Shown: piece after piece, positions 17,593 through 63,934 of the stretch
Numbering within the stretch: position 1 is the first letter of the stretch
How the letters are laid out: the number at the start of each line of letters is the position of its first letter
Source of the DNA: an uncultured Rhodospirillaceae bacterium
GTDB lineage: Bacteria; Pseudomonadota; Alphaproteobacteria; UBA8366
Direction of reading: 5' to 3'
Length of the DNA: 64,000 bases
Assembly: GCA_913043025.1 (NCBI GenBank)
Contig: CAJWLM010000003.1
Coordinates: forward strand, 62,001 to 126,000
Position numbers and translations under genes: made by a program
The notes under the pieces: model-generated
Database searches by the model: none
What the model was told of the DNA's origin: nothing
Seen by the model: only the letters and a program-made list of their open reading frames with translations

Positions 17593-20555
17593 TCAAGTAT
17601 GCGCTCTAAGTGTTCATAATCATTATAGTGCGGCTTGCGGCTTGGAACTGGAATTGCCTCATAGGCGGTCGCAGGGTCAGAAAATTTTTCAACTAACGTC
17701 TGAACCCCAACGAAAGCTTCCTCAATCAGTGTTTCTAAATTGTCGAACGATGTAGTCGTTCCTGCCGGATGACCTCCCCCGAGCTTCCAATAATAAAATG
17801 CGAAAACCTCCCAAATATCTTGGCCCTTTAATCCCTCAAAGCCACCATTACTAGCAATGAGCGCTTCTAATGGTAGTTGGGGAGACAGCCCATTTTGGAC
17901 CTGTTTTTTTGTCGGAGTACTGCCAGTCTTATAATCAATGATTTCTAGCCTGCCATCAGCAAACTGGTCTATTCGGTCAGCACGTGCTGTTAATTCAAAA
18001 GGGCCATTTTTCGTCTCCAAGTTTATTGAGCCCTGTATTTCGGTAAATGATTTTATCACCCCATTTACACGCACCCTTTCATATTCGACAACAAACCACT
18101 CCGCGATGCGACAAAATCGCGGCCACCAGAATGCATACACTGAAGGTCGCATGGGATGCTCACCGAAAACCTCCTCGCCAATTTTTAACAATACTTGTAA
18201 ATCAGCGGGCGGAGGCCCATCCGAGAAACGACTTATATATCGGTCGAGGATGACATGGATTATCATTCCATTTTGAGAGGCCCCGGGGTCAGCTTCAAGT
18301 GGCTCCAACTTCTTCAAATTGATAATATGGCGCGCATAGATCCCGTAGGGATCACGCATTAAAGTTTCTATCTGCGTTACTGACAATTTTTCTGGCCTAG
18401 CAGAAATAGGTGGTCTAGGTACCGGGGGACCTACCGGCTTTATAAATTTTGGCCTATCGAGCCTTGTTTGCCAATGTGTCCAATGATCTGGCGCTATCAG
18501 GCCACTACTGTTTCCCGCGGCACGGAGTACAGAATTGAGTCTGCTTAACCAACGGGTAGGCACCGTCGGAGTACCATCAACTTTTCTAGATCGGGTTAAA
18601 AATACCTCAGGGGCCGCTAACAGTTGAGTAAAATCATGTGCCGAAAGCCCTATGCGCTGTTCAGCAACCGGCAAACCAAATGAGCGGCGCATAGGGCGAC
18701 TTAGCCACGGATCGGGTTTTACTTCAAGCGGCCAATTTCCCTCATTAAGACCAGCAACAATAATGCAATCTGCTTTCTGTAACCGAGCCTCCAATGGTCC
18801 CCAAACATTTAATCTTGGATGCATCCCGTAACGCGGTCGCACAATCGTGCGCCTCATTAAGATATTCAGGACTGCTGGGTAGTGATACAGCGAAAGGTCG
18901 GAAAATACACTTGCAGAAACCCGTAAGTCGGAGAAGAAACGCGCTAATGATTCACCGCTTTCTCCAACCCAAAGTCGTTCGGCCCCCCCCCTATCTTCAG
19001 TCTGGGCTAACGCCTCTGCGACCTTAATGTGAGCCTCCACCAGCGCACTAAATGGCACTTTCCCATCTCTAAGGGAACTCATAGGGCGGCATCGGATATC
19101 GAATTCATCCAAAATATTAGCCAGTAAGCTTTTACTTGAAGCATCTAAAGACTTGCTTTCAGTAGTCTCCAGTAATGACCGAATACCTTGAATACCCGGT
19201 GCGGACCTAGGTCCTCTCAAAATTGTACGGTCCATTAACCGAATCCCTGACCGGAGTCCGGCCACAGTAAAACCAGCAGCGGTTAGTGGATGTTTTCCAA
19301 GACCTAGAAGTGCTACTGGCCCAAATTGTTCTGCTACCATTTCAGCTACCAGGCGCATGAATATTGCCGGATAAGTATCGGCTAAGGGAATACCGGCAGA
19401 GTCATCAATATTAATTTTCCAGCGTTTAAGTTCCATAGCTACGCGGCGCGCCAATCGTCTATCGCCGGTCACTAGTGCACCCGTTTTGCCTTCTACCTCG
19501 AGTTGTTTTCGCAATATAAGAGCAATAACACCCGCCTCCTCTGACTCGTTGGAACATTCGATAAGATGCAGCCCATCTGTTGGTAGAGGCTCAGATTTTT
19601 CCAGATTCTGCCAAACTGCAGTCATTGGTGCGGGACGCATTGCCTCTAAAATCAAACGGGCCCGCCGATCGCAAATACTTTGATGGCCCCAAACTGCGAC
19701 ATCTTCTCTCTTTACTTTAAGCCGTTTCAGCAACCTCGCCATCCCAAATTGTGGATGTGTAGGATCTTTTGAAATAGCTGCCCAATTCGTTTCATCGCTT
19801 AAAAGGTCTAATCCAGGCAGAATTACACGTCCCTGAGGCATCCTCGCAACCATCGCTAACAAATCAGCGGTTACAGGTATGCTGCCGGTAGAGCCAGCAG
19901 CTATGATAGGCCCAGCTGGCGGATTACTGCCCCATTGTTGAACTCTCGCATCGAGTAACCTGTTGCGCCGTTCCGCTGGTTCCAAGAAACCCAAACGTTC
20001 AACCTCTGATGGCCAATTTTCTGTAAAATCACGTAGGAAACCAAGAGTCTCCTGCCAATGCATAGCAAGCTCCTCTGGCACCAGAGCATCTAAACCAGCA
20101 AAATCAAGCCGTTCCGTTTGAACCATGTCAAGAAAGCGCGCTAACTCTATAGCCAGCAGAAGTGCTTGATCTGGGGGGGATACATGCGGAGACACTTCGG
20201 GCAAGCTTATTCTGTGACTTTGTATACGCTTTGCTAGGGACAAAATACGATAGCTATCAGGCATAGCGGGGGCAAGTTCCGCAATATCAATCCCCGTAAT
20301 GTTATCAAAAGCTAGTTCTTCTTCGTCAACATCGCCGATTGCCTGCATGGCAGGTAAAGCTGTTGGAACACCTTCACGAAGTCGTAAGAATGAATCCTGC
20401 AAGGCTCGGCACGCACGACGAGTAGGCAATAAGACAATCGTCTCCGAAAATTGACTCAGGTCTCCTTCCGTTTCGATTATCATTTGGGAAGCCAAACTGT
20501 CTAAAAAAGATTGCTCAGCCGGGATTGTAAAAATGGAGCCCTTGTGCCTAAACAT
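17568..20555 (-). CDS. addB: double-strand break repair protein AddB
   Basis: Partner of AddA: a 995-residue protein with a degenerate helicase-like N-terminal part and a C-terminal RecB-type nuclease. The nuclease core is seen near residue 895 as IIDYKTGSTPT followed by QLPLEALI. The alphaproteobacterial AddB subgroup has the N-terminal pattern ETIVLLPTRRACRAL, present here. ATG start at 20555. Its 3' end overlaps addA, and murU lies 24 bases upstream on the same strand. Confidence 0.94.
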   Translation of the reverse strand: MFRHKGSIFTIPAEQSFLDSLASQMIIETEGDLSQFSETIVLLPTRRACRALQDSFLRLREGVPTALPAMQAIGDVDEEELAFDNITGIDIAELAPAMPDSYRILSLAKRIQSHRISLPEVSPHVSPPDQALLLAIELARFLDMVQTERLDFAGLDALVPEELAMHWQETLGFLRDFTENWPSEVERLGFLEPAERRNRLLDARVQQWGSNPPAGPIIAAGSTGSIPVTADLLAMVARMPQGRVILPGLDLLSDETNWAAISKDPTHPQFGMARLLKRLKVKREDVAVWGHQSICDRRARLILEAMRPAPMTAVWQNLEKSEPLPTDGLHLIECSNESEEAGVIALILRKQLEVEGKTGALVTGDRRLARRVAMELKRWKINIDDSAGIPLADTYPAIFMRLVAEMVAEQFGPVALLGLGKHPLTAAGFTVAGLRSGIRLMDRTILRGPRSAPGIQGIRSLLETTESKSLDASSKSLLANILDEFDIRCRPMSSLRDGKVPFSALVEAHIKVAEALAQTEDRGGAERLWVGESGESLARFFSDLRVSASVFSDLSLYHYPAVLNILMRRTIVRPRYGMHPRLNVWGPLEARLQKADCIIVAGLNEGNWPLEVKPDPWLSRPMRRSFGLPVAEQRIGLSAHDFTQLLAAPEVFLTRSRKVDGTPTVPTRWLSRLNSVLRAAGNSSGLIAPDHWTHWQTRLDRPKFIKPVGPPVPRPPISARPEKLSVTQIETLMRDPYGIYARHIINLKKLEPLEADPGASQNGMIIHVILDRYISRFSDGPPPADLQVLLKIGEEVFGEHPMRPSVYAFWWPRFCRIAEWFVVEYERVRVNGVIKSFTEIQGSINLETKNGPFELTARADRIDQFADGRLEIIDYKTGSTPTKKQVQNGLSPQLPLEALIASNGGFEGLKGQDIWEVFAFYYWKLGGGHPAGTTTSFDNLETLIEEAFVGVQTLVEKFSDPATAYEAIPVPSRKPHYNDYEHLERILEWSGGTKK

Positions 20556-53462: not shown

Positions 53463-55169
53463 TTAATTTTTTGCAATGACACCAGGTAATCGTCGGTATG
53501 GAAGGTCTTGGTGCACATCCTCCATTATCACTTTCCAAAGTTGTGCCGGCAATGAACCACCCGTGAGACCCTTGGTTGGTTGGCCATTGTCGTTACCCAT
53601 CCAAACACCTGTAACATAATGACCTGTATATCCAATGAACCATGCGTCACGATAGCCCTGAGTAGTTCCGGTTTTCCCAGCAGCGGGTGGCCTGATTCGT
53701 GCCGCTTGTCCCGTGCCCCAATCCACGGCCGCATACAAGAGATCATTTATCAGCTTTACATCTCGATCGGCTACCACTTGGGTCGATATCCCTCTAGGCC
53801 GACTATATATTATGCGGCCGTCTGGTGTGGTTATTTTTTTAATGCCGAATGGCTCAACTGCGCGCCCAGCATTTGCAAATGTTGCATAAGAGGCAACTAG
53901 TTCCGATAGCCGCATTTCATAAACACCGAGGGCCAGTGATGGCTTAACCCCAAGCTTACTGGTAACACCAAGCCGCCGCGCCACTTGAATAACTTTATCA
54001 CGGCCAACCTTTTCCGCCAGCGCCACCGCAATAGCGTTGGAAGAACGCGCAACACCCTCACGCAATGTCATAGGCCCCAAATGCCGGCGGTTATGATTAC
54101 GCGGTTTCCAACCCTGCACTGCAATTGGCATATCTCTAACACGCTGATCCGGTAATATCCCACTTTCCACGGCAGCGAGATAGATAAATAGTTTAAATGC
54201 AGAACCCGGCTGTCTCCGGGCTTGGATGGCGCGATTGAATTGACTGAAGTCGTAATTGCTTCCACCTACCATCAAACGGATGGCGCCATTGGGCGATAGA
54301 GTTAGAACTGCTACTTGATCCGCTCGTTTCTCTTTCGCAAAACTCATAACTGCAGAAGTATATTTTTCTGCGGCCCTCTGCAACTTTGGGTTGAGAGTTG
54401 TATGGATTATAACATCATGATCGAAACCGCCTAAAAACCCTTCTGCCTGACGCAAAACCCAATCTGCGAAATAACGGGCCCCAGAACGTGCCATTTTTTT
54501 ATTCACAGTGGCCACTGATTGACGAAATTGAGTGTGCGCTGCTTGCTCCGACAACCAACCAACAGCAATCATGTTTCGCAGAACCTGGTTCGCACGCGCG
54601 GCCGCACGTCTTGGATACACGATAGGATTATAACGACTCGGCGCCTTCAACAACCCCACAATTACCGCCGATTCGTAAAGCTCAAGCTCACTCGATGATT
54701 TTCCAAAATAATACCTAGCCGCTGCATCCACACCATAAAGACCCGCTCCGAAGTAAGCTCGGTTGAGGTAAATTGTGAGTATTTCGTCTTTAGTAAAACG
54801 ATATTCGAGCCAGAAAGCCAACAATGTCTCACGGATTTTTCGCGATAACGTGCGCTCCTGTGTCAGGAATAAATTCTTTGCTAATTGTTGAGTGATGGTA
54901 CTACCACCCTGAAGAATACGACCTGCATTCAAATTTCGGCCCAGTGCTCTGAAGATACCGATAAGGTCTATACCCAAATGTTTGTAAAAGCGCCTATCTT
55001 CTGTTGCCAATAAAGCATTAGGTATTACCCGTGGCATATTTTTCAAAAGAACCGGTTTCCCATGCCGGTTTCCAAACTGAAAAATAGGGCTTCCATCAAC
55101 AGCTACAATTCTGACTTCTGCTTTCCTATAGGAAGCTTTCTCCAAATTCGTAATATTTGGCAAGCTCAT
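53463..55169 (-). CDS. class A penicillin-binding protein, catalytic frame (transglycosylase-transpeptidase)
   Basis: The open frame has 568 residues. Transglycosylase motifs are EDRRFYKHLGID, GGSTITQQLAKN, RKIRETLLAFWLE and LNRAYFGAGLYGV. The transpeptidase has the acylated Ser in GSAFK, the SSN triad element in ARSSNAIAV and KTGTTQG. It polymerises and cross-links peptidoglycan. The ATG at 55169 has no ribosome site and lies within what should be the membrane anchor; a basic tail and the rest of the anchor are encoded upstream but out of frame (see 55170-55297). A full protein would have about 611 residues. Confidence 0.9.
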   Translation of the reverse strand: MSLPNITNLEKASYRKAEVRIVAVDGSPIFQFGNRHGKPVLLKNMPRVIPNALLATEDRRFYKHLGIDLIGIFRALGRNLNAGRILQGGSTITQQLAKNLFLTQERTLSRKIRETLLAFWLEYRFTKDEILTIYLNRAYFGAGLYGVDAAARYYFGKSSSELELYESAVIVGLLKAPSRYNPIVYPRRAAARANQVLRNMIAVGWLSEQAAHTQFRQSVATVNKKMARSGARYFADWVLRQAEGFLGGFDHDVIIHTTLNPKLQRAAEKYTSAVMSFAKEKRADQVAVLTLSPNGAIRLMVGGSNYDFSQFNRAIQARRQPGSAFKLFIYLAAVESGILPDQRVRDMPIAVQGWKPRNHNRRHLGPMTLREGVARSSNAIAVALAEKVGRDKVIQVARRLGVTSKLGVKPSLALGVYEMRLSELVASYATFANAGRAVEPFGIKKITTPDGRIIYSRPRGISTQVVADRDVKLINDLLYAAVDWGTGQAARIRPPAAGKTGTTQGYRDAWFIGYTGHYVTGVWMGNDNGQPTKGLTGGSLPAQLWKVIMEDVHQDLPYRRLPGVIAKN

Positions 55170-55297
55170 GGCCGCAAAAAGAAGACCCCCTAATATCGCT
55201 GTTGTGCTCCAAAATAATAGCCGCGTTACATGGGACTGATATCGCCAGCGATTTTTTTTTTACCAACAAAACGGCTTTTTTTACTTTTGCGTGCCAT
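55170..55297 (-). other. displaced 5' segment of the penicillin-binding protein gene, with a ten-A tract
   Basis: From an ATG at 55297 the minus strand encodes MARKSKKSRFVGKKK, then a run of ten A (55252-55261). After the run, the frame that continues into the catalytic gene reads NRWRYQSHVTRLLFW, then STTAILGGLLFAAM, a basic segment followed by a membrane anchor. In the sequence as given the two are out of register; one extra A would join them into a normal class A protein. The cause may be a sequencing or assembly error, polymerase or ribosome slippage, or a real frameshift. Confidence 0.75.
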
Positions 55298-55417
55298 TAC
55301 AATTCTTTCGAAGGATACAATTGTTTCGAAGTCGACATGAAATATCGGGTCTCAAATGCGACGTTGGAGACATGCCCTGGCCTCGTTTATATTCCATTAG
55401 ACAGCAGAGGATGCGAA

Positions 55418-55918
55418 CTACCGTATGGTTTCTTTTGGATACAGACCCCAAAGGCCCTTTCGGCGTATCCAGCCTTCATGGTCTCGAACGGAAACATAAC
55501 ACCAATCTAAATCGCATCTTTTAACAAGGACAATCATTTTAGTTGAAAGTCTAGCGATTGCGGGAGCACTATCGCTGGGCCGGCGACGCATGGTTTGTTC
55601 AACTCCGGTGAGTATTAAACTTCTTTTGTACTCGAGCATAGCACGGTGGACCCATCCTTCACCTCCTTCCCAATCACGTATTTTCCTCCATGTATCGTAT
55701 TGTGCAATGACCTCTATAGGTGCGTGCCGCTGAACAAACTTCCATTTTACTGGATACCGAACTCCTGGCCCTGCTCGAACATTTACGTCATTTGCTCGTA
55801 TGGAAGCAAAGCGCTGAACGAGTTTGCCTTTCTTGGCTTTTTGTGCGGACACCACAACTGGATTAACGATAACTATTAAACTAGCGAGCAAAAGATAAAA
55901 AAGGCTTTTTAAAAACAT
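55418..55918 (-). CDS. exported SH3-domain protein
   Basis: A 166-residue protein. Residues 1-25, MFLKSLFYLLLASLIVIV to VSAQ, form a signal peptide, so it is secreted to the periplasm. Two bacterial SH3 repeats follow: VNVRAGPGVRYPVKWKF with a GWVHRAML end, and a second ending GWIRRKGLWGLYP. Such domains bind cell-wall peptides. An ATG at 55948 would add ten residues; the one at 55918 fits the signal better. It lies upstream of the penicillin-binding protein gene on the same strand, 120 bases away, which agrees with a wall-related role. Confidence 0.85.
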   Translation of the reverse strand: MFLKSLFYLLLASLIVIVNPVVVSAQKAKKGKLVQRFASIRANDVNVRAGPGVRYPVKWKFVQRHAPIEVIAQYDTWRKIRDWEGGEGWVHRAMLEYKRSLILTGVEQTMRRRPSDSAPAIARLSTKMIVLVKRCDLDWCYVSVRDHEGWIRRKGLWGLYPKETIR

Positions 55919-56026
55919 CTTCAACAACCCAAAATATGACACACCCATAAAAAAGCTATTCTTTGTATAACATGTAATATATTTGCAAACTGCAATGTTC
56001 GCGCCGCTTAACTAGTGAAGACCCAG

Positions 56027-62383: not shown

Positions 62384-63934
62384 TTACTGTGATTTTAACA
62401 AATATCCTAAAATAAATGAGGCTGCAGAGAAAGTTATTATTACGGCGGCAGAAACGGGAAGCCGAAACCTATGACGAAGACTAGAAACCACAGACCAAAA
62501 CTGCCCTTTATCTGTCTGACCTCCAGCATTTTCCTCTGCACGCTGTATCAGCGCATCAACTCGTGCAACCAAGTGGGGCAATCGAAGGCAAAGCGATGAA
62601 AACTCTTCTACCCCCCCCAAAAACCTAGCTTGCGGACCACGATTCCGTCTCATCCAACCCTCAATCAGTGGTCGAGCTAAAATCCAGATGTTTGAATCCG
62701 CATCGAGCTTGCGGCCTACCCCTTCTGCAACCAACATATTCTTTTGCAACAGAAGAAGTTGCGGCTGAACCTCCATCTGAAAGTCCTCTGCCGTCCTAAA
62801 TAATCGAGCTAAGAGACCCGCGATTGATACCTGGTTCAATGGACGATCAAAAAGTGGCTCAGCAACCGCGCGCAAAGATAAAGCAAAAGCATCGCGTGAC
62901 TGACTAGCCGGAACCAAACCTGCATCAAAATGGATGTCTGCTACCCTTTTATAATCTCTCTGCAAGAAGGCCATCAACATATCCGCCAGATAGAACCGGG
63001 TCGCTTGGTCAAGACGTCCCATAATTCCAAAATCTACCGGTACCAGCGTGCCTTCAGGAGTAACAAACATATTTCCGGGATGCATATCCCCATGGAAAAA
63101 GCCATCCCGAAACACCTGTTGAAAAAAGACTCCGGCAGAATTCTTTAAAATCTCACGGCGATCGAGGCCTAACTGGCTGATTTTCTCTACATCGTCAATG
63201 CGAATACCATCAATCCACTCGATGGTAAGCACTCGTTCACTGGTTCGATTCCAATCAACTTCAGGTACTTTGAACCCAACATCGCTTGCTGTAGCTAATG
63301 CTAATTCCGACGCCGATGCAGCCTCCAACCTCAGATCCAATTCAGTATGCACTATCTCCTTAAAGCGATCTACAACCGCCTTTGGCTTGTAACGAGCAAA
63401 ATTTGGCAGCATCAGTTCAACAGTGTTGGCCAACCAAATGAACAGATCAAGATCTTTAGCAAAAGCGGCCTCGACATCAGGTCGCAAAATTTTAACGGCG
63501 ACTAATTGCCCGTCAATCGTCTCAGCTGAATGAACCTGCGCTATCGATGCTGCGGCTACTGGTTTAGGATTAAAATGCCTAAATATTTTCTCAACTTTGT
63601 CACCCAGCTCTCGCTCAAGGGTTTCTATTGCTAGGGAGCCATCAAATGCCGGCATATTGTCTTGTAATAGGGCAAGATCATCCGCCGCCTTGTCGCCAAT
63701 AAGATCTGAACGAACGGCTAATGTTTGCCCAAATTTTACAAAACTCGGACCTAGTTCTTGAAGGGCTTCAGCCAAACGTTGGCCGAGCCCGCCTGGCTGA
63801 TCCCTGCGTCGAAACAAGAAAATGATAGCCCGCACGAAAATTGATTGTCTCTCTGAAGACGGTAAAACATCGTAACGACCGAGAACGCGTAGAATACGGA
63901 TCAAACGGAAACTGTTTACGACCAATTTTAACAT
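62384..63934 (-). CDS. ubiB: ubiquinone biosynthesis protein UbiB
   Basis: A 516-residue atypical kinase/ATPase of the ABC1/ADCK family, needed for ubiquinone synthesis in the inner membrane. The KxGQ motif FVKFGQTLAVR near residue 70, VAVKILRPDV, HGDMHPGNM and VPVDFGIMGRLD are present. A C-terminal membrane helix, VIITFSAASFILGYLL, anchors it. The gene follows ubiE, 15 bases away, as in many Alphaproteobacteria, and coaBC follows after a 189-base AT-rich interval with no visible gene. Confidence 0.95.
   Translation of the reverse strand: MLKLVVNSFRLIRILRVLGRYDVLPSSERQSIFVRAIIFLFRRRDQPGGLGQRLAEALQELGPSFVKFGQTLAVRSDLIGDKAADDLALLQDNMPAFDGSLAIETLERELGDKVEKIFRHFNPKPVAAASIAQVHSAETIDGQLVAVKILRPDVEAAFAKDLDLFIWLANTVELMLPNFARYKPKAVVDRFKEIVHTELDLRLEAASASELALATASDVGFKVPEVDWNRTSERVLTIEWIDGIRIDDVEKISQLGLDRREILKNSAGVFFQQVFRDGFFHGDMHPGNMFVTPEGTLVPVDFGIMGRLDQATRFYLADMLMAFLQRDYKRVADIHFDAGLVPASQSRDAFALSLRAVAEPLFDRPLNQVSIAGLLARLFRTAEDFQMEVQPQLLLLQKNMLVAEGVGRKLDADSNIWILARPLIEGWMRRNRGPQARFLGGVEEFSSLCLRLPHLVARVDALIQRAEENAGGQTDKGQFWSVVSSLRHRFRLPVSAAVIITFSAASFILGYLLKSQ

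Follow-up and report, generated by a model that had tools for sequence, protein, structure and literature searches.

Runs of at least nine A residues make bacterial RNA polymerase slip, an A9 case being dnaX of T. thermophilus (PMC1088944), and insertions outnumber deletions in homopolymer slippage in measured transcriptomes (PMC5574713). In the bacterial "pseudo pseudogenes" with 9A/9T tracts described by Baranov et al. (2005, PMC1088944), the ORF is broken at an A run prone to slippage, homologues in other species form one ORF, and the tract differs in length from one homologue to the next. In the tssM1 gene of Citrobacter rodentium an A11 tract lies ahead of a premature stop, and the full-length protein needs slippage; this template gives rise to transcripts with 10-15 A and to 20-25% frameshifting, and both products are functional (PMC4256274).

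A class A penicillin-binding protein (PBP) gene in the window, i.e. the whole stretch of 64,000 nucleotides of alphaproteobacterial DNA that was analyzed, shares the features listed above for the cases of Baranov et al., and resembles tssM1 in having an A run ahead of a premature stop, with a full-length product which would need slippage. Unlike the cases of Baranov et al., the PBP gene is out of frame in several congeneric copies, which fall into two phases, and its break comes within the first 15 codons, so that the unslipped product is negligible. In tssM1 slippage was measured and both products function, whereas for the PBP gene slippage is predicted from the sequence. A literature search for class A PBPs with transcriptional slippage or phase variation, many journals lying outside it, returned no earlier case. 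The kind itself is already known (Baranov 2005; Citrobacter tssM1), and a class A PBP seems to be a new addition to it.

Long A runs are scarce in this genome: its 3.08 Mb contain nine of at least 10 residues, whereas a first-order Markov model with the composition of the window predicts about 43. This approximately five-fold scarcity would fit with such sites being avoided. Buchnera and Blochmannia are AT-rich endosymbionts. Transcriptional slippage has been reported at homopolymeric runs in their cellular genes (cited in PMC5009743), which is a further likeness; unlike them, the window has 46% GC, and long A runs are depleted. A/T runs of at least nine are only mildly depleted in the genome (92 seen, about 133 expected), which marks a sharp length threshold relative to the runs of at least 10. 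As a separate observation, two A10 tracts lie 7 bases apart in the congener G002 (G002:C4:159645-159671, L077) with no long ORF across them, and a single A10 at G000:C26:22729 in the window's own genome is related to this double tract.

Read directly on the minus strand, the gene begins with an ATG at 55297-55295, followed by the twelve codons MARKSKKSRFVG, the A10 tract at 55261-55252, TCGC and then TGGCGATAT. The frame opened by this ATG terminates at TAA 55228-55226. The catalytic frame, running from 55247 (TGGCGATAT; WRYQSHVTRLLFWSTTAILGGLLFAAMSLPN...) to the stop at 53465-53463, is one base out of phase with it, and the membrane anchor lies 3' of the A10. Upstream, the catalytic frame is closed by a TAA at the tract's 5' edge, and no ATG, GTG or TTG was found in that frame ahead of ATG 55169. 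An alternative start 3' of the tract was rejected, the first in-frame candidate being this ATG near the end of the helix, where it would cut the helix, as the preliminary description had said of the anchor. That description had also placed between 55170 and 55300 an A10 which parts the start and basic tail from the anchor and catalytic frame, and had given about 611 aa for the product with one added A; the interval and the figure (12+4+1+594) are both correct. The DNA-level frame break at the A10 of the PBP gene is thus confirmed.

Table 1. Features of the PBP locus and its upstream neighbor
Feature	Position	Strand	Remarks
Frame-0 ORF MARKSKKSRFVGKKKIAGDISPM, 23 aa, basic tail, TAA end	55226..55297	-	Start and 12 codons MARKSKKSRSVS common to congeners
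A10 tract (T10 on + strand), frame-change point	55252..55261	-	G001, A10 (both copies); G002, A9
Membrane-anchor helix core LFWSTTAILGGLLFAAMSL, catalytic frame	55161..55217	-	Mean hydropathy 1.67; homologous helix in 42/42 relative loci
Class A PBP catalytic-frame part, 594 codons and stop, transglycosylase and transpeptidase domains	53463..55247	-	
First in-frame ATG 3' of tract	55167..55169	-	Start there would remove most of helix; TTG in G002
Upstream gene, bacterial SH3-domain protein, signal-like N-terminus (PF06347, PF08239)	55418..55948	-	Context only

The catalytic frame matches PF00912 (transglycosylase, E 1.1e-63) and then PF00905 (transpeptidase, E 5.3e-30), which is the domain order of class A PBPs, and its match to TIGR02074 (570 bits against a cut-off of 508.75) assigns it to the PBP1A family. 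A basic stretch and a hydrophobic helix stand ahead of the catalytic part in all 42 relative loci, a few of which are the same locus fetched twice, and 38 of them have an in-frame start ahead of the helix. The remaining four are the two G001 copies of this gene, each fetched twice. The proposal that the upstream frame is irrelevant, homologues normally lacking the tail and anchor, was rejected given the universal anchor; the earlier assignment of the basic tail and anchor to the gene was borne out by their in-frame position in one congener and 37 further relative loci. In the window both are encoded one frame apart across the A10 (in G002 they are in frame), and their presence in the window's protein would depend on slippage.

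The tract was compared among three genomes of the genus, namely that of the window (G000), G001 and G002, which supplied four gene sequences. G002 carries A9-CGG and an intact single ORF of 610 aa. G001 carries two distinct copies (L034 and L035) on different contigs, both with A10-TGG and one base too long, and the window, with A10-TCGC, would need one more base to reach the next in-frame length. Three of the four copies are therefore out of frame at the tract, with the window and G001 in opposite phases. The preliminary description had held that 11 A in close relatives would mark a sequencing error; the relatives instead have A9 in frame or A10 in the other out-of-frame phase. The 12 codons 5' and 594 codons 3' of the tract are of equal length in all four copies, and the break therefore lies each time at the tract or a base or two 3' of it; a compensating second indel was rejected on the same ground. 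Alignment of the window with G001 places the length difference just 3' of the shared A10T, and it therefore need not be an A. The copies L034 and L035 are 98.2% identical from codon 31 on (about 1.8% apart). They belong to near-identical PBP-region copies on contigs C6 and C48, separate contigs of one MAG, which suggest two co-assembled strains or species. A pattern scan of viral contigs for further congener copies found none.

Between the two G001 copies Ks was 0.048 and Ka 0.009. Of the codons with a single change, 18 were synonymous and 12 nonsynonymous, whereas neutrality predicts a synonymous fraction of 0.314 (P = 1.2e-3); the test used the observed transition bias and assumes that both lineages have been out of frame ever since their split. 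When pairwise counts were split over three branches, Nd/Sd was approximately 0.52 for the window, 0.30 for the first G001 copy and 0.52 for the in-frame G002, with neutrality at about 3.1; the window branch is silent on how long that copy has been out of frame. Among the congeners, Ka in the anchor region was approximately double that elsewhere in the gene; in two in-frame pairs from other genera the factor was about 1.8. No stop or second indel was found in the 594 catalytic codons of any of the four copies. The catalytic part of the two out-of-frame G001 copies shows purifying selection, and the gene looks to be maintained despite the break.

The reading that we favor, with a probability of about 0.58, is that an otherwise maintained class A PBP gene has a real break in its frame at an A tract of variable length, and that RNA polymerase slippage would supply some in-frame mRNA (a "pseudo-pseudogene"). 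An A run of at least nine sits at the break, slippage would restore one ORF, and a one-ORF homologue is present in G002 and in other genera. Replication slippage probably lets the tract length, which differs as described, drift between species. RNA polymerase slippage on the A10 would then produce a mixed mRNA pool with a minority of in-frame length, and from this minority the cell would make some anchored, full-length PBP (about 611 aa). Unslipped mRNA would give rise to the 23-aa peptide only, the net effect being lowered expression. It was previously suggested that the gene could make two products; since the unslipped product is this short peptide, attenuated expression rather than a second functional protein is the probable outcome. 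Slippage in either direction could serve, +1 in the window and -1 or +2 in G001. Rescue in G001 may be weaker than in the window because a one-base loss or two-base gain is needed there, while insertions dominate slippage. A second complete bifunctional PBP of approximately 825 aa (G000:C18) is encoded in the window's genome, and loss of the interrupted PBP could therefore be tolerated.

The likeliest alternative, which we nevertheless consider unlikely, is a phase-variable or mixed population in which frequent replication slippage flips the tract, the assemblies having caught the OFF or majority length while other cells are ON. The genome has another class A PBP, replication slippage can occur on a tract as long as A10, and tract length and phase do differ between species, the two G001 copies sharing A10. 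Three of the four sequences would be OFF, however, an enzyme of the cell wall is not what is typically found among phase-variable surface antigens, and mutS, which lowers homopolymer indel rates, is present in G000 and G002. Loss of mismatch repair as the cause was rejected, mutS being intact in these two genomes and its absence from G001 being uninformative at 84% completeness. Within the window, a C9 at 18983-18991 and a C8 at 62611-62618 lie inside intact minus-strand ORFs of 995 and 516 codons; they are potential slippage or phase-variation sites, currently in frame.

It is rather doubtful that the genus keeps the A tract as a device which lowers expression or creates cell-to-cell noise, with RNA polymerase slippage setting a small, variable dose of the full-length PBP. 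That the copies are recent true pseudogenes, the tract having inactivated a dispensable PBP and decay having yet to show, is improbable: the second bifunctional enzyme speaks for it, but the two G001 copies (Ks about 0.05) share the break yet show purifying selection, and the catalytic codons are free of stops and further indels in every copy.

A simple homopolymer error had been named as the main alternative; it would have arisen when the window was sequenced or assembled. The genome is a draft of 65 contigs, and homopolymers are the usual site of such errors, but the genome has four further A10 tracts in genes, and all of them keep frame. Of 30 sampled A9 tracts, 22 are spanned by a single ORF of at least 120 codons, and the split pattern was seen in none of the 30; a few of the spanning ORFs end soon after the tract, and homologue comparison is not part of this count. 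Among the 12 other homopolymers of at least eight residues in the window, 11 are in a spanning ORF and one is without a long ORF. With other genic homopolymers in frame and two G001 copies disrupted at this very tract, the error explanation is weakened, and an isolated error in the window is decidedly improbable. Programmed ribosomal frameshifting on A AAA AAA is highly improbable: ribosomes slide on A runs (PMC4363877) and the phase of the window suits a -1 shift, but G001 needs the opposite shift, no Shine-Dalgarno-like stimulator stands upstream, and the slippery A run is followed by no stimulatory stem or stable downstream fold (z +1.23).

Genes of the pseudo-pseudogene kind favored here are usually annotated as frameshifted pseudogenes or cut to a later ATG, and in the present case a protein begun at the later start would lack the membrane anchor. 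With A9 in frame and A10 out of frame in two phases, the congeners offer a compact natural experiment in moderate-GC bacteria on the extent to which RNA polymerase slippage protects a gene against frameshift mutation.
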